The translations under genes were made by a program, and so were the position numbers. DNA of 64,000 bases, taken from contig CACLIZ010000003.1 of the NCBI GenBank assembly GCA_902607115.1, positions 1-64,000 of the forward strand, in the 5' to 3' direction. This stretch comes from an uncultured Pelagibacteraceae bacterium (GTDB taxonomy: Bacteria; Pseudomonadota; Alphaproteobacteria; Pelagibacterales; Pelagibacteraceae). This document shows positions 1 through 31,408 of this stretch, piece after piece (position 1 is the first letter of the stretch; each line of letters opens with the position of its first letter). Below the pieces are notes generated by a model that was not told the origin of the DNA, did no database searches, and saw only the letters and a program-made list of their open reading frames with translations.

Positions 1-1069
1 TTCTTTTCTCAGATATTTTTCTATCTAAAATTGTTTCACTATTACCAGTGCCTTTGAATTCCTCAAATATAACTTCATCCATTCTACTACCCGTATCAAT
101 TAACGCTGTTGCTATAATAGTTAAAGATCCGCCTTCTTCAATATTTCTTGCGGCACCAAAAAATCTCTTAGGTCTCTGAAGGGCATTTGCATCAACTCCG
201 CCCGTTAGTACTTTGCCTGAACTTGGCACTACAGCATTATATGCTCTTCCAAGTCTAGTTATAGAGTCTAGTAGTATTACAACATCCTTCTTATGCTCCG
301 TAAGTCTTTTTGCTTTTTCAATAACCATCTCAGCCACAGCCACGTGTCTTTGAGCAGGTTCATCAAAGGTTGAGCTAATTACTTCACCTTTAACGGTTCT
401 TTGCATATCAGTAACTTCCTCTGGCCTTTCATCAATTAATAAAACCATTAAGTAACACTCAGGATGATTGGCTGTTATTGCATTTGCGATACTTTGTAAA
501 ATCATGGTTTTTCCAGCTTTAGGTGGTGATATAATTAAAGATCTTTGACCTTTGCCTATTGGACTAACTAAGTCAATTAATCTAGGTGTGAGGTCTGGAT
601 TTTTTTCAACTTTATTTTTTTCTGACTCCATAATCAGCTGGCTATTCGGATATAATGGGGTAAGGTTATCAAAAGCAATTTTGTGTCTAGCTTTTTCCGG
701 TTCTTCAAAATTAATCTTGCTTACTTGTAAAAGTGCAAAATATCTCTCTCCATCTTTCGGGGCTCTAACTGGGCCCTCTACTGTGTCACCAGTTCTTAAA
801 CCAAATCTTCTTATTTGGCTTGGACTAACATAAATATCATCTGGTCCTGGTAGATAATTCGATTCCATTGCTCTTAAAAAACCAAATCCATCTTGGAGCA
901 GCTGTAGCACACCTGCGCCTGTAATTTCTTCACCTTTTTCTGCGTGTTTTTTTAATATAGCGAATAATATTTCTTGCCTTCTTAACGTGCTTGCATTTTC
1001 AATGCCTAATTTTTCAGCATCACCAATCAATTGCTCTGATGTTTTTCCTTTTAATTCTTGTATGTTCAT
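1..1069 (-). CDS. rho: Transcription termination factor Rho (3' end of gene runs off the window)
   Basis: Reverse-strand translation starts [46 protein letters not shown] and contains the Walker A-like [12 protein letters not shown] and [12 protein letters not shown] motifs; not in supplied ORF track because it is open at the window edge. Confidence 0.96.
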
Positions 1070-1559: not shown

Positions 1560-2554
1560 TAATTTAAATTTCTTTTAACAATATGTTCTAATAAAATAAT
1601 ATGATCATCATTGTCATTTAAACAGGGGATAAAATCAAATTTTTCTCCCCCAGCCTTTTCGAAACTCTCTTTTCCTTGAATTAAAATTTCTTCTAGTGTT
1701 TCAACACAATCTGATGCAAAACCTGGGGATACTACTAAAACTTTTTTTACTCCTTCCTTGGGCAATTTTTCCAAGGTTTTATCTGTATATGGTTGAAGCC
1801 ATTCTTCAGGTCCAAATCGTGATTGAAATGTTGTTATTATTTTTACTTTATCAAATTTCTCTGAGATTAGCCTGGTAGTTTTTTGACAGTAACAATGGTA
1901 TGGGTCACCTTTTTCAAAATATTTCTTTGGAATGCCGTGATAAGATGCAATGATTAAATCTGGCTTCCATTCTATGGCGCTTAACTTTTTATTTATACTA
2001 TTAACTAAAGCGTCGATATATAATGGTTCAGACTCATAATGAGGAACTATTTGTATCGCTGGCTGCCATCTCATTTTCATTAGTACTCTAAAAACTTCAT
2101 CACACACAGTAGCGGTAGTTGGTGAAGCATATTGCGGGTATAAAGGAAAAATGATTAATTTTTCACAACCTTCTTTCTTCATGCTTTCAATTTTACTTTT
2201 AATACTCGGGTTTCCATATCTCATGGCAAAATCAACTATTAAATTCTCATTTTCAATTTTTTTGCTAAGTTTTTTTGTCTGCATTTCTGTATAAAATCTT
2301 AATGGTGATTTATTTACATCCTTCATCCATATTTCTTTATAAGCTTTTGCTGTTTTGGATGGTCTAAAAGTTAATATAAATAAATTTAATATTATTTTCC
2401 AAATAAAAGGGTTTACTTCGATTACTCTTCTGTCTGATAAGAATTCTTTTAAATATTTTCTTATATCCCACCAATTTGTAGAATCGGGTGTTCCTAAATT
2501 TATTAATAATACTCCTGTCTTTCCAAAATTTACTTTTGGGTGGTCTTTGTTCAT
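1559..2554 (-). CDS. hemH: Ferrochelatase
   Basis: GVLLINLGTPDS, SYHGIPKKYFEKGDPYHCYC, FQSRFGPEEWLQPYTD motifs. Confidence 0.97.
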   Translation of the reverse strand: MNKDHPKVNFGKTGVLLINLGTPDSTNWWDIRKYLKEFLSDRRVIEVNPFIWKIILNLFILTFRPSKTAKAYKEIWMKDVNKSPLRFYTEMQTKKLSKKIENENLIVDFAMRYGNPSIKSKIESMKKEGCEKLIIFPLYPQYASPTTATVCDEVFRVLMKMRWQPAIQIVPHYESEPLYIDALVNSINKKLSAIEWKPDLIIASYHGIPKKYFEKGDPYHCYCQKTTRLISEKFDKVKIITTFQSRFGPEEWLQPYTDKTLEKLPKEGVKKVLVVSPGFASDCVETLEEILIQGKESFEKAGGEKFDFIPCLNDNDDHIILLEHIVKRNLN

Positions 2555-3552
2555 CTAAAGTCTTTCACAAAATCAACTAAAATTTTTACATTTTCGGGAT
2601 TAGTTTCAGGAATTACACCGTGCCCTAAATTAAAAATATAATGATGATTTTTAAATATTTCTAAATATTTTTGAGCATTTTTTAACATATCTTTTTTATC
2701 TAATAACAAACATTTTGGATCTAACCCTCCTTGTATTGGAATATCAATATCTTCCGCAATTTTATTCGGATCTATTTCATAATCAATGCTGATTGCACTT
2801 GGTTTTACAATATCACAATATTTTTTGTAAGATTTAATTCCTCTAGGAAAACAAATTACTTCAACTCCTAAACTTTTAACAAAGTCTACTAATTCTTTTG
2901 TTGGTTGATAAATGTACTTATCAAATTTGTCCGTCTCCAAAAGGCCCGCCCAACTATCAAAAATTTGTATTATTGAAGCTCCATTTTCTACTTGTTTTTT
3001 AATATGCAGTTTTTGAGTATAAATTATTTTTTTTAAAATTTTATCTTGTTCGGGGTTTTTATAAATATTTGGATCTAGTGTTTTTTTTGGAGATTTTTTA
3101 TTTAACATATAAACTAATAGCGTCCATGTGGCACCCACAAATCCTATTAAATCTTTATTTGTTAAAGTTTTATCTTCGGATGTATTTTTAATAAGTTCAT
3201 AAACCGGATTTAGTTTTTGATAAATTTCATTATCAGATAAATTTAAAATTCTTTCTATATTTAAATCTCCAAGTACCGGGCCAAAGTTTTTCTTAAATTC
3301 TAAGTTTTGGCCTAAGGCGTAAGGTATAAGAAGAATATCAGAAAATATGATTGCAGCATCAAATGAAAACCTTTTTAATGGTTGTAAAGTTATTTCTTTA
3401 GAAAGTTTAGCATTTAAACAAAGTTCAATAAAATTTGTATTTTTAGATCTTATATCTCTAAACTCAGGCAGGTATCTTCCTGCTTGCCTCATAAACCATA
3501 TAGGAATTGAGCTTGTTTTTTTTTTATTTATGCAATCTTTAAGAATACCCAT
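2551..3552 (-). CDS. hemE: Uroporphyrinogen decarboxylase
   Basis: PIWFMRQAGRYLPEFR motif, QGGLDP, FNLGHGVIPETNPENV. Confidence 0.98.
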   Translation of the reverse strand: MGILKDCINKKKTSSIPIWFMRQAGRYLPEFRDIRSKNTNFIELCLNAKLSKEITLQPLKRFSFDAAIIFSDILLIPYALGQNLEFKKNFGPVLGDLNIERILNLSDNEIYQKLNPVYELIKNTSEDKTLTNKDLIGFVGATWTLLVYMLNKKSPKKTLDPNIYKNPEQDKILKKIIYTQKLHIKKQVENGASIIQIFDSWAGLLETDKFDKYIYQPTKELVDFVKSLGVEVICFPRGIKSYKKYCDIVKPSAISIDYEIDPNKIAEDIDIPIQGGLDPKCLLLDKKDMLKNAQKYLEIFKNHHYIFNLGHGVIPETNPENVKILVDFVKDFR

Positions 3553-3824
3553 AATTAAAATATAATTAATCTTATTTCTTTATATTATTATCCTGTGAAT
3601 TAGTTTAATTAAAATTCATACAGTTTTTTACACATTTTTATTAACAATAATATTGTTCTAAAACAATTGATTTACTTAATTTTTATTTAAAATTAACAAT
3701 TTTTTTAAATATTAATATGTTTTTTTTTACTTGTTTAAATGTGTTAATAAACAATTGTAAAAACTAATAGTTTTATATTATTTAAAAAAAAGGCAAATTT
3801 TGTCTAATAATATTATATTTATAC
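3553..3824. other. Predicted chromosomal replication origin (oriC) region
   Basis: Largest clear AT-rich gap in this area, between divergent hemE and ppsR (conserved alphaproteobacterial oriC context); contains near-consensus DnaA-box-like 9-mers TGTGAATTA (3594), TTTTACACA (3626), TTATTAACA (3638) and TGTTAATAA (3742), each one mismatch from TTATNCACA/complement. Confidence 0.72.
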
Positions 3825-4649
3825 ATGAATAATACACATAATATTTATCTTATTTCAGACTCTACGGGAGAAACATTAGACAGGATATTTATGGCCTTAA
3901 AAGCACAGTTTAAAAACTTTAAACATAATTTATTCCACTACTCTTTTACCAGAACGGAAAACCAGATATTAAAAATACTTGAAGAGGCTAAAAAGAAAGA
4001 AGATTCGATAATATTATATACAATAGTAGACAATAAACTTGCAAAATATTTATCTCAAGAAGCAAACAAGAAAAAAATTCCTTGCTTTGGGGTGCTGGGA
4101 GATCTTATACTTAATTTTTCTAAACTCCTTAATCAAAAAGCCACCAATATTCCAAGTGGACAACATGCTTTAACCGAAGAATATTATAAAAGGATTGAGG
4201 CAATACAATTTACGATGAACCATGATGACGGGAATTCAATAATAGATGTAGATAAATCTGATATTGTTTTATTAGGAGTAAGCAGAACAAGCAAAACACC
4301 CACATCAATTTATTTAGCTAACAGAGGTTATAAAACTTCAAACATTCCACTAGTGAATGAAAATTCAATCCCTCCAAAACTTAAAGAAAATCCAAAAACA
4401 TGTTGTATAGTAGGTTTAGTAGCCGAACCAACAAGATTACACGACGTTAGAAAAAATAGGCTTACAACGATTAAAGAACAAGAACACATTAAATATATTA
4501 ATTTGGAAACTATTAAGAAGGAAACAGAAGAATCCAAAAAAACATTTAAAAAATATCAATGGCCTATGATTGATGTAACCAGAAAGTCAGTTGAAGAAAC
4601 GGCTGCGTCAGTAATAAAAATGTATGAAATTTTTTCAAACAGAAATTAA
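3825..4649 (+). CDS. ppsR: Pyruvate, phosphate dikinase / PEP synthase regulatory protein (DUF299 kinase-pyrophosphorylase)
   Basis: YLISDSTGETLDRI N-terminus; LLGVSRTSKTPTSIYLANRGYKTSNIPLV P-loop-like motif. Confidence 0.93.
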   Translation: MNNTHNIYLISDSTGETLDRIFMALKAQFKNFKHNLFHYSFTRTENQILKILEEAKKKEDSIILYTIVDNKLAKYLSQEANKKKIPCFGVLGDLILNFSKLLNQKATNIPSGQHALTEEYYKRIEAIQFTMNHDDGNSIIDVDKSDIVLLGVSRTSKTPTSIYLANRGYKTSNIPLVNENSIPPKLKENPKTCCIVGLVAEPTRLHDVRKNRLTTIKEQEHIKYINLETIKKETEESKKTFKKYQWPMIDVTRKSVEETAASVIKMYEIFSNRN

Positions 4650-25413: not shown

Positions 25414-26073
25414 TTACATTTGTTTTAAGATTTTTATATTTTTTTTAATATCTCCATTATTTTCTTTAAAGACTGTTGTGCCTGAAACTAAAATATCCAC
25501 ACCAGCTTCTATTGCAATCATAGAAGTTTCAAAGTTTATTCCACCATCGATTTCAATTTTAAAATTTAAATTATTTTCTTTCCTAATTTGATCTAAATTT
25601 TTAACCTTTCGAAGAACATCATCTATAAACTTTTGGCCACCAAAACCTGGGTAGACACTCATTACTAAAACTAAATCAATTTTATCTAAATATTCTTTAA
25701 CAGCTTTTATTTCAGTTTTAGGATTTAAAGACATTCCAACTTTTTTATTTAATGATTTAATTAGATTTATTGTCTCCAAAGGATTTTCTGTAGCTTCTGG
25801 GTGAAAAGTTATAATATCAGCCCCAGCATCACTATAGTCCTTAATATATTTATGTACTGGATCTATCATTAAATGAACATCAAAAGGTAAGTTTGTATAT
25901 TTTCTCAAACTTTTTATAACCGGAGGTCCAATTGTAAGATTTGGAACAAAGTGACCATCCATCACATCAACATGTACCATGTCAGCTCCACCTTGTTCAA
26001 GTCTCTTAATTTCATTACCCAACTGACTAAAGTCAGCTGATAAAATTGAAGGTGATATTTGTATTTTTTTCAT
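25414..26073 (-). CDS. rpe: Ribulose-phosphate 3-epimerase
   Basis: ISPSILSADFSQLGNEI; VHVDVMDGHFVPNLTIGP; VMSVYPGFGGQKF; EIDGGIN. Confidence 0.98.
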   Translation of the reverse strand: MKKIQISPSILSADFSQLGNEIKRLEQGGADMVHVDVMDGHFVPNLTIGPPVIKSLRKYTNLPFDVHLMIDPVHKYIKDYSDAGADIITFHPEATENPLETINLIKSLNKKVGMSLNPKTEIKAVKEYLDKIDLVLVMSVYPGFGGQKFIDDVLRKVKNLDQIRKENNLNFKIEIDGGINFETSMIAIEAGVDILVSGTTVFKENNGDIKKNIKILKQM

Positions 26074-26118
26074 TGATTACTAATATATACTAGTATCAAT
26101 TTTATTTTTTAATTTGAA

Positions 26119-26469
26119 TTAATTTTTACTAAAAATTCTATAAATTTCTTGAGCTATTTCGCTTTCTAAAGGGAAAGATAGCATGCCCATAACAGAATAG
26201 CCCAAAATATATGGCATTAAATAAAATCTAATCATGTAGAAGAACCATGCAACATATAGTGGCACCAAAGGTTTTATAATAAACTCTGGAGTAATAGGTT
26301 TAAATATCTTGATAAGGGGATTAGTTAGATTTACAAAAACTTTCATAAAAAAAAATCCAGAATCTTCTCTTTGAAAGATATTCATTGCTACTCTTCCTAT
26401 AAGTGTCCACATTATAACACCCAAAATATAATCTATTATATAAACTAAAGGATGAAAGTTTGCAGACAT
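26119..26469 (-). CDS. Membrane protein, possibly YggT-like
   Basis: IIDYILGVIMWTLIGRVAMNIF...VNLTNPLIKIFKPITPEFI resembles YggT pattern. Confidence 0.5.
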   Translation of the reverse strand: MSANFHPLVYIIDYILGVIMWTLIGRVAMNIFQREDSGFFFMKVFVNLTNPLIKIFKPITPEFIIKPLVPLYVAWFFYMIRFYLMPYILGYSVMGMLSFPLESEIAQEIYRIFSKN

Positions 26470-26496
26470 AACTTAAAAGGATTTAATTTAAAATTA

Positions 26497-26523
26497 AAAG
26501 GGGCGAAATGTTATCGCCCCTTA
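26497..26523 (-). terminator. Rho-independent-type terminator downstream of the SSS symporter gene
   Basis: Stem AAGGGGCGA (26498-26506) / TCGCCCCTT (26514-26522), 7-nt loop, T-rich on the minus strand after the stem. Confidence 0.8.
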
Positions 26524-26535
26524 AAATATATTTAT

Positions 26536-28356
26536 TTAGTGTTGTTTACCAAGTACTGTTTTACCACTTGGAATACGAACTTCATCAACCATCTTCTGAG
26601 TAGCAGAGTCCGGTGCTTTAGTCGCCAAACTAACCACAATCATAGATACTAAACTAGCCAATGCTCCATGTATACCGAAGGTAAGTTGAGTTACACCCCA
26701 GATTGGAGTTCCACCAGTTCGTACATGAATTAAGTACCAAGTACCAACTGCTAAACCAATAAGCATACCTGCAACAGCGCCCTGTGCATTAGCTCTTTTC
26801 CACCATACTCCTAGTACAAGTGGGAAGAACAATCCTGACATCGCAAAGTCAAAAGCCCAGATAACTGAACCTAAGATACCTTGGATCTCTAGGGCTGCAA
26901 TAGTTGCTCCAGCAAAACCAATTATTACAAGTAATACCCTTGCAACAATTAATCTTTTTGCAGTTTCTGCTTTAGGATCAATGATCTTGTAGTACAAGTC
27001 ATGAGATAAAGCATTTGCAATTGCTAAAACCAAACCATCGGCAGTAGACATGGCAGCAGCCATACCTCCAGCAGCAACTAGTCCTGAAATTACATAAGGC
27101 AATCCAGCAATCTCTGGAGTTGCTAGCACAACTGCTTTACCGCCCATGAAAAACTCATTTAATTCTAGAGTTCCATTTCCGTTAAAGTCGCTAACAAACA
27201 TTAGGTTTGCCTGATTCCAGTTTTGGTACCAGTCTAACGCTTGAACTTCAGATATTGATTTACCAATAATTCCTGTTGTTAAGGTTGGATCCATCAATGA
27301 TAGTTTTGATAAAGTAGCTAACATAGGAGCAGAAGAATAAAGTAGGAAAATAAAGAATAATGACCAACCTACTGATCTTCTAGCTGCTTTTACACTTGGA
27401 GTAGTAAAGTATCTCATCATAACGTGAGGTAATGAAGCTGTTCCAGCCATCATACAAACCGCTAATGAAATAAACGCCCAAGGTGTTGCATTCACTGATG
27501 AGTGAGCCTTAGTTATACCCGCTAAGCCTTTTGGAACTGTAGCTAAGTCAGCAGCTGTGTTTTTCACAGTTCCTAAACCAAACTGAGCTTCTAACTCAGC
27601 GATTCTAGCAACTTCATCTGCTAACATTAAGTGTGGAAAAAAACCAGCACCCATTTTATTACTGATCCAGAATACAGGTAACAAGTATGCTATAATCAAT
27701 ACGATGTATTGAGCAACCTGTGTCCAAGTAACTGCCCTCATTCCACCAAGCATCGAGCACATTAATATACTTGCTAATCCAACGTAGACAGCTACTCCAA
27801 ACGGAATATCTAATGCAACTGATGCAATAGTTCCTGTCGCGTTAATTTGTGCCGTCACATAAGTGAATGAAGCAACTGTTAATACCAATACAGCAGATAG
27901 TCTTGCAGCATTACCACCATATCTTGTTCCTATAAAATCTGGAACTGTGTAGCATCCAAATTTTCTTAGGTAAGGTGCTAAAAGCGATGCAACCAATACA
28001 TATCCGCCTGTCCATCCAACTAGAAGTGCCATATATCCGTAGCCTTTAAAATAAATTCCCCCTGCCATTGCAACGAATGATGCACCAGACATCCAGTCTG
28101 CTGCAGTTGCCATTCCGTTAAATACGGTAGGAACTTGTCTTCCCGCTACGTAATATGCATCTACTTGAAGTGTACGAGATAACCAACCAATTATGGCATA
28201 GATACCTACAGTGAAAGCAACAAAAAAGATTCCTATCAATTTTGCTGACATTCCTGCCTGCTCTGCTATTGCCATTAAGATTATGAATACAAGGAAACCT
28301 CCAGTGTATATTCCATAAACTTGTGGTAAATTATCTATAAATTTACCTTTAATCAT
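26536..28356 (-). CDS. Sodium:solute symporter (acetate permease-like, VC_2705-type)
   Basis: SSS-family TM pattern, AMSTADGLVLAIANALSHDLYYK; paired with upstream DUF4212 subunit; EF-hand-like loop DFNGNGTLELNE. Confidence 0.93.
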   Translation of the reverse strand: MIKGKFIDNLPQVYGIYTGGFLVFIILMAIAEQAGMSAKLIGIFFVAFTVGIYAIIGWLSRTLQVDAYYVAGRQVPTVFNGMATAADWMSGASFVAMAGGIYFKGYGYMALLVGWTGGYVLVASLLAPYLRKFGCYTVPDFIGTRYGGNAARLSAVLVLTVASFTYVTAQINATGTIASVALDIPFGVAVYVGLASILMCSMLGGMRAVTWTQVAQYIVLIIAYLLPVFWISNKMGAGFFPHLMLADEVARIAELEAQFGLGTVKNTAADLATVPKGLAGITKAHSSVNATPWAFISLAVCMMAGTASLPHVMMRYFTTPSVKAARRSVGWSLFFIFLLYSSAPMLATLSKLSLMDPTLTTGIIGKSISEVQALDWYQNWNQANLMFVSDFNGNGTLELNEFFMGGKAVVLATPEIAGLPYVISGLVAAGGMAAAMSTADGLVLAIANALSHDLYYKIIDPKAETAKRLIVARVLLVIIGFAGATIAALEIQGILGSVIWAFDFAMSGLFFPLVLGVWWKRANAQGAVAGMLIGLAVGTWYLIHVRTGGTPIWGVTQLTFGIHGALASLVSMIVVSLATKAPDSATQKMVDEVRIPSGKTVLGKQH

Positions 28357-28620
28357 TTAGTCATCCTCTCTTTCAGAAAAGCCAAATTCTTCATCTATTT
28401 TTTCTTGTCTTCCAGCAAACCAAAAAATTAGTATTACAAAAATTCCCAACGACCCTTGACATGTCATGTAGTAAGATAGTGGGTATCCAAGAGGTCTAAA
28501 ACTAGATGCTTCCATTTCAGCTCCAAAGAGAAAGATGCCTATTGAGAATACAAACCAGATTGCTAAAGTAACAAATAGCAAATTCCTAGTTTTATCCCAA
28601 TGCTGTTCTTGTTTTGACAT
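28357..28620 (-). CDS. DUF4212 small subunit of SSS symporter
   Basis: HWDKTRNLLFVTLAIWFVFSIGIFLFG...GYPLSYYMTCQGSLGIFVILIFWFA. Confidence 0.93.
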   Translation of the reverse strand: MSKQEQHWDKTRNLLFVTLAIWFVFSIGIFLFGAEMEASSFRPLGYPLSYYMTCQGSLGIFVILIFWFAGRQEKIDEEFGFSEREDD

Positions 28621-28739
28621 TTTTATTCTCCCTATAGGTTAAAAAGAGCAACATTACTTAAGAATGACAAATATTGAAACCTTAAAAAATGCTCCAAATA
28701 GTTGATTTTTTATAATATAAATCAACTAGCACTAGAGAA

Positions 28740-29366
28740 ATGGCTTTAAAATATAAATTCAATTTAAAAGATATTAGTCTTGAAGATTTTAGACTTTATT
28801 TCTTTTCACTATTCAAAGCATTTTTACCTAAGAAAAAAATTAAAAATATTAATGATTTGGAGTCTTTTATTCAAAAAAAATCTGCATGGGTTTCCCAAGT
28901 AACTTTGTATAGCTATCTTAAAACTAGAATGGGCACAAAGTATGTGCTGCACTTTGATAATGAGCAACTACTGACTTCAATTAATAAAGCAAAATGGAAT
29001 ATTTATTCCATAGCTTTACAAGATCTTACTTTCTACACCCTTTCCTATCTCAATGTTTTTTCTAATTATAATGAAATGGATCAAGCAAAAAAAATTTATG
29101 AGAAAATTTTAGATAATGAGATTTCAAATGGAATGCCAGAAGATATTATTAGTAAGGGAAAGGTTTCTTTTGAAGACAGATTAAATAAAATAAATTGGAA
29201 AATTTATTATAATTCTTGGCCATTTAATGAAAGTGCTCTAGCTTTATATGAATGGGCACCTATAGCTGATGAATTAAAAACTTTAGACAGAAAGATTGTT
29301 CTTAACTCTATGATATTAAAATGGGACAATATTAAAGAAGAGTTTAAAAAATTAATAAGGATTTAA
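28740..29366 (+). CDS. Conserved hypothetical protein (208 aa)
   Basis: Intact ORF, convergent with acs; no family recognised. Confidence 0.6.
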
Positions 29367-31408
29367 ATATTTTTTCTATTAACTACTAAACTTTTAACAA
29401 CACTTGGATCAGCTAAAGTTGTTGTATCACCAAGTTGATCATGTTCGTTTGCAGCAATTTTTCTTAAAATTCTTCTCATAATTTTTCCTGATCTAGTTTT
29501 TGGTAGTCCTGGAGAAAAATGAATTATATCAGGCGTTGCTAATGGGCCAATTTGTTTTCTAACCCAAAGTTTTAATTCTCTTTCGAGTTCTCCATTAGGT
29601 TCTTCTCCAACATTCAAAGTTACATAACAATATAAACCGTTTCCTTTTATATCATGTGGGTAACCAACTACAGCTGCTTCAGCAACTTTTGGATGAGCTA
29701 CAAATGCACTTTCAATTTCAGCAGTTCCGAGGTTATGACCAGATACAATAATTACATCATCAACCCTACCTGTAATCCAGTAGTAACCATCTTTATCTCT
29801 TCTACACCCGTCACCTGTAAAATATTTTCCATCAAACTGTGAAAAGTATGTATCTATAAATCTTTGATGATCTCCATAAACTGTTCTCATTTGTCCCGGC
29901 CATGATTGAGAAATACATAATCTTCCTTGTCCCTCTCCTTTTATCTCTTTTCCGTTTTTATCTACTATACATGGTTTAATTCCATAGAAAGGTTTTGTTG
30001 CAGAGCCTGGCTTTAGATCAATTGCCCCTGTTTGTGGTGTAATTAAAATACCTCCCGTTTCAGTTTGCCACCACGTATCAACTATTGGACATCTGCTATC
30101 ACCTACAGTTTTATAATACCATTCCCATGCTTCTGGATTTATTGGTTCACCAACTGTGCCTAATAATTTTAAAGTTTTTCTTGATGTTTTTTTTATTGGA
30201 CCTTCCCCTTGAGCCATCAATGCTCTAATTGCTGTTGGTGCTGTATAAAAAATATTAACTTTATACTTATCAACTATTTGCCACCATCTAGAAGAATCAG
30301 GATAAGTTGGAATACCTTCGAACATTATAGTTGTTGCTCCGTTTGCAAGTGGTCCATAAATTATATAACTGTGTCCAGTGATCCATCCAATATCAGCGGT
30401 ACACCAATAAATATCTTTTGATTTATAATTAAAAATATATTGGTGAGTCATTGACGCATAAACCATATATCCACCTGTTGTATGAAGGACGCCTTTTGGT
30501 GTTCCTGTAGAACCTGATGTATATAAAATAAATAGAGGATCTTCTGCACTCATCTCTTCTGGTTCACAATGAGTTGGGACACCTTTTATCATATCATCAT
30601 ACCAAACATCTCTGCTTTCATCCCAATTAATTCTATTGCCAGTTCTTTTTACAACAATACATTTTTTTACATTTTGACAATGAATTAAAGCTTCATCAGT
30701 GATTGATTTTAATGGAATAATTTTACCACCTCTTAAACCTTCATCAGCAGTTACAATATAGTCCGACTTACAATCGTTTATTCTTCCAGCAATGCTGTCA
30801 GGAGAAAATCCACCAAATATTATTGAATGAACCGCACCTATTCTTGCACAAGCAAGCATTGTATATGCTAATTCAGGCACCATAGTTAGATAAATTGTAA
30901 CTCTATCACCTTTTTGAACACCAAGTTTTTTTAAACCATTCGCGGCTTTTGAAACTTCATCATGCAATTGTCTATAGCTTATTTTTTTTTGAACTTTTGG
31001 ATCATCCCCAACCCAAATAATTGCATTTTTATCTTTATTTTTTTTTAAATGTCTATCTATACAATTTGCTGAGGCATTAAGAGTTCCATCATAGTACCAT
31101 TTAATGTTAACATCTGTCTTGCTATAATTAACATCTTTAATTTTTGTGTAAGGTTTAATCCAGGTAATTCTTTTTCCCTCTTTAGCCCAAAAGTCATTAT
31201 TATTTCTGATGGATTCTTTATATTTTTTCTCATACATTGACTTGTTAACCAATGCATTTTTTATCCATTCCGATTTAGTTTTATAAATTTTTTCAGCTAT
31301 TTCTTTAGATCTAACTTTAGCCTTTTTTCTTTTTATTATTTTTTTATAATTTTTTTTCTTTCTTAAAGTTTTTTTTTTATATTTTTTTCTTTTCTTTTTT
31401 TTAGACAT
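29363..31408 (-). CDS. acs: Acetyl-CoA synthetase with lysine-rich N-terminal tail
   Basis: [55 protein letters not shown]-term [29 protein letters not shown]. Confidence 0.97.

Follow-up and report, generated by a model that had tools for sequence, protein, structure and literature searches.

In Caulobacter crescentus, the chromosomal origin Cori occupies the intergenic region between hemE and the COG1806 gene, which is AT-rich and carries several DnaA boxes (PMC1914354), and a parS cluster lies about 8 kb from the origin on the left arm (PMC5815017). The predicted origin of Rickettsia prowazekii has been placed between the same 2 genes, while those predicted for Wolbachia, Ehrlichia, and Anaplasma lie between hemE and COG1253, with CtrA and IHF sites reported (PMC1914354). 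A literature search returned no published SAR11 oriC at hemE, which does not exclude that one exists. The 64,000-nucleotide stretch analyzed here, which we refer to as the window, corresponds to contig 3 of an assembly of 892,538 bp in 42 contigs with 69% completeness; the named genomes nearest to it come from uncultured marine organisms and are filed as Pelagibacteraceae. The gap between hemE and ppsR in this window (Table 1) can be predicted with high confidence to be the chromosomal oriC of this SAR11-like alphaproteobacterium. An origin beside hemE, where those of Caulobacter and Rickettsia also lie, is very probable, a solid but expected result, and the shared flanking pair bears out the parallel that an earlier note on this DNA had drawn with both organisms.

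The likeness to Cori extends to the hemE and COG1806 flanks, the AT-rich composition, the presence of several boxes, and a parS site at a similar distance (7.5–11.0 kb in congeners, on the hemE side). With R. prowazekii, which belongs to a different lineage, the comparison is one of location rather than sequence: the predicted origin of each sits at this address, in a genome that is reduced and AT-rich. The earlier note had described an AT-rich gap of roughly 270 bp between divergent genes in a defined gene order, and Pfam assignments reproduce this order on both sides, with rho, hemJ (UPF0093), hemH, and hemE to the left and Kinase-PPPase, Maf, AroE, CoaE, a DnaQ-like exonuclease, SecB, FxsA, and Tim44 to the right, the SecB and FxsA genes being on the minus strand. 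The AT content of the gap is higher than the genome average, and its duplex stability is practically the lowest among 272-bp blocks of the window. Elsewhere in the window, positions 26000–30000 form a G+C-richer interruption (approximately 36%) of the AT-rich background.

Table 1. Features of the predicted origin and its surroundings, in window coordinates.
Feature	Position	Strand	Description
Predicted oriC	3553..3824	.	Intergenic, 272 bp, 87.5% AT
hemE, flanks the origin	2551..3552	-	Pfam URO-D, 3.7e-85
ppsR (PF03618; COG1806/DUF299), other flank	3825..4649	+	Pfam, 1.5e-87
rho	2..1069	-	Truncated by contig edge
DnaA box 1	3594-3602	-	TAATTCACA; inside most conserved left block
DnaA box 2	3626..3634	+	TTTTACACA
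DnaA box 3	3638..3646	+	TTATTAACA
DnaA box 4	3742-3750	-	TTATTAACA; inside most conserved right block
Most conserved left block, holds box 1	3583..3606	-	94-98% identity, nine close relatives
Most conserved right block, holds box 4	3733..3750	-	99% identity, nine close relatives
AT-rich spacer, candidate unwinding element	3647..3725	.	91% AT; from composition and duplex stability

DnaA boxes were searched for as TTATNCACA with at most 1 mismatch, and expectations were taken from dinucleotide shuffles. The window gap contains exactly the 4 box-like 9-mers that had been claimed for it, against 0.78 expected (p = 0.003), so the enrichment over shuffled sequence that the earlier note proposed as a check is present. 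TTATTAACA alone occurs twice against 0.09 expected (p = 0.003), and its 2 copies form the inverted pair noted previously, with the AT-rich spacer lying between them. When one-mismatch boxes are counted per 270 bp, the gap is the densest cluster within the 64-kb window, although all 4 of its boxes are 1 mismatch off and no exact TTATNCACA occurs in it.

We examined conservation in 2 partly overlapping sets, 30 same-genus loci that include the window's own and 79 public loci that reach hemE. The hemE/gap/ppsR arrangement is kept in all loci of both sets (30/30 and 79/79), with gap lengths of 260–288 bp. The 30 same-genus gaps together hold 131 one-mismatch boxes, where shuffles predict 25.8 (sd 4.9), and 23 exact boxes, where they predict 1.1. 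A strict pattern, TTATNMACA, was scored in 70 of the public loci, where boxes recur at fixed places and strands at approximately −229 (−), −207 (+), −93 (−), and −17 (+) relative to the start of ppsR; the box at −93, counted in favor of the conserved right block, is found in 56 of these 70 loci, which are related, so that the counts do not represent independent events, and the −17 box is absent from the window gap. In the 9 closest relatives, identity is 91% over the 4 window boxes but 75% over the remaining gap positions (p = 0.011). Box 4 does not vary among these relatives, and at the position of box 2 there is TTTTCCACA or TTTTTCACA in 8 of the 9. The position of box 1 reads TTATTCACA in locus L087 and is occupied by strict boxes in most of the 70 other loci. 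Box 3 aligns with TTATTCACA, TTATCCACT, TTACCCACA, or TTACTCACA in several of the 9 relatives, so that the degenerate boxes of the window correspond to canonical or near-canonical boxes. The alignment across relatives that had been suggested as a further check thus finds the boxes conserved.

A parS site, defined as an exact match or one with at most 2 mismatches, was sought in G012, a complete congener, and in 10 others for which long flanks were available. In all 11 it is on the hemE side, beyond rho and 7.5–11.0 kb away from ppsR, at the gidA/gidB junction within an mnmE-gidA-parS-gidB-parA-parB block, in which the mnmE, gidA, gidB, parA, and parB names come from reading translations rather than from a family search. 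There is no parS within the 64-kb window itself because of the contig edge. In the window's own genome, the mnmE-gidA-gidB-parA-parB block forms a separate 5.7-kb contig (G000:C30) with a perfect parS, and since rho is cut at the left edge of the window and the block is syntenic with that of the congeners, this contig probably abuts the rho end of the window. In the left flanks of 3 genomes (G027, G004, and G005; loci L052, L066, and L063), there is also a second parS-like copy exactly 332 bp from the first.

Because the window's own assembly is fragmented, strand skew was analyzed in G012 (1,343,202 bp, one contig), with approximately 61% of the chromosome sampled in stretches. Raw GC skew is dominated by gene orientation and was discarded as uninformative, and for this reason we used an orientation-corrected logistic model of third-position G versus C with terms for orientation and replichore, the terminus being set opposite the origin. 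This places the origin at approximately 1.20–1.32 Mb with a resolution of about 100 kb, and the gap lies at 1.262 Mb. Fixing the origin at the gap (1,262 kb) gives z = 3.18, a value reached by 2 of 135 grid points and by none of 300 block permutations, and the best grid point is at 1,230 kb (z = 3.4); if the terminus is left free, the best origin is at 1,300 kb. In G012, the leading strand carries 61% of the coding sequence. When only the second, independent half of the sample is fitted, z is 1.6 at the gap and the preferred origin is at 110 kb; AT3 skew in G012 is not significant, and the pooled ±20 kb flanks of 10 congeners lean opposite to the expectation for an origin. Given these 3 results, the skew is weak and is consistent with the gap as origin rather than proof of it. 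As for the GC-skew check proposed in the earlier note, the corrected genome-scale fit in G012 agrees with the gap, whereas the local flanks run contrary. With skew of this strength and resolution and a fragmented assembly, oriC is a strong prediction at this locus, not a demonstration.

The resolution of the skew bears directly on whether the true origin might be elsewhere nearby, at dnaA or at a second box cluster of G012. Sites within approximately 1.20–1.32 Mb cannot be told apart by skew, and the positions to consider are 1,199 kb for dnaA and 1,324 kb for the other cluster, but the tie between parS and the hemE locus in every congener searched speaks against both, and we regard such a displaced origin as extremely improbable. 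At dnaA, which G012 carries 63 kb from the gap, there is no box cluster, only 1 weak box near the gene, and around dnaA in the window's genome there are 5 scattered weak boxes. The second cluster, at 1,324.4 kb (L051:1192-1425), is 62 kb from the gap on the side opposite to dnaA and consists of 6 DnaA-box matches, all of them weak, in DNA that is mostly coding, belonging to a GAF/Fis-type regulator gene and to the last part of an MFS-like gene; we rejected it as an origin.

If instead the gap only housed the divergent promoters of hemE and ppsR, its conserved blocks would be promoter or regulator sites, possibly DnaA-regulated. A gap between divergent genes must carry both promoters, and the conserved blocks could indeed be operators, but this reading does not predict a cluster of DnaA boxes with parS and skew nearby, and the gap is the widest between divergent genes in the window, the runner-up being 119 bp. 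Further evidence comes from a sister family in which no PF03618 match was found in any of the 24 genomes searched. All 13 of its genomes with a hemE match have the order hemE, a gap of 262–275 bp, and maf, so that both the length of the gap and its position beside maf are kept after the right-hand gene has been lost, which is better explained by a cis element in its own right than by a ppsR promoter. Taken with the evidence from the window, this makes a promoter-only gap very unlikely. The sister family resembles Wolbachia, Ehrlichia, and Anaplasma in retaining the hemE boundary while the second neighbor has changed, ppsR being lost and maf adjoining the gap, but the replacement is maf here and COG1253 there. 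The sister-family loci (L074–L086) keep hemE, the gap, maf, and aroE and have conserved blocks of their own, CCTGTG, TTGCCCACA, and AACAGGTG.

An oriC with degenerate DnaA boxes, as the earlier note proposed, is thus supported: box enrichment, conservation among relatives, and the skew-based origin in G012 were each put to the test without refuting it, and parS, together with the persistence of the gap once ppsR had been lost, adds independent support. It keeps the standing of a prediction. In the general picture of bacterial origins, DnaA loading leads to the opening of AT-rich DNA and to helicase loading in both directions. Outside the window, the same genome encodes a DnaA whose box-binding signature (NRDHTTVIHS) is intact. 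If initiation does occur at the gap, we infer that DnaA would bind 2 groups of boxes, 3594–3646 and 3742–3750, that melting would follow in the AT-rich DNA between these groups and beside them, and that helicase would be loaded in both directions at the opened DNA, with ParA and ParB acting on the nearby parS to move the new origins apart. For a marine lineage known mostly from uncultured, fragmented genomes, this would provide an exact origin coordinate, which would anchor growth-rate estimates from metagenomic read depth and aid the ordering of fragmented assemblies. It would also mean that a hemE-linked origin persists through streamlining of the genome, including where one of its two neighbors has disappeared.

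Unlike Cori, the predicted origin has AT-shifted boxes, among which TTATTAACA dominates, and the window gap has neither GANTC nor the IHF consensus. GANTC occurs once in the 79 public origin gaps against 9.4 expected and twice in the 30 same-genus gaps against 4.7 expected. RAMA-domain (CcrM) proteins and GcrA-family proteins were found in all 6 genomes searched, with CcrM and GcrA as their best matches, yet below the strict NCBI equivalog cut-offs. Sites for CtrA and IHF are reported for Caulobacter and the Rickettsiales. Here TTAA-N7-TTAA, with 2 occurrences in the window gap, is at most weakly enriched in origin gaps (22 against 8.5 expected in 30 gaps, 29 against 23.3 in 79), and no CtrA protein was recognized: none of the OmpR-type regulators examined reached the CtrA cut-off, PhoB or other families matching better, although the window's own assembly is incomplete and absence is unproven. 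It is conceivable, though doubtful, that DnaA in these organisms has shifted to an AT-rich box with TTATTAACA as its main functional site, and that oriC is run without CtrA or GANTC methylation sites even though CcrM and GcrA homologues are encoded.

GANTC is also depleted across the window as a whole (87 against 161 expected), despite the CcrM homologue encoded in the genus. Among the OmpR-type proteins there is a short one of approximately 190 aa without a recognizable standard receiver half (G012:C1:1244375-1244590 and G000:C23:7052-7267; L205); in G012 its gene is 17 kb away from the predicted origin.
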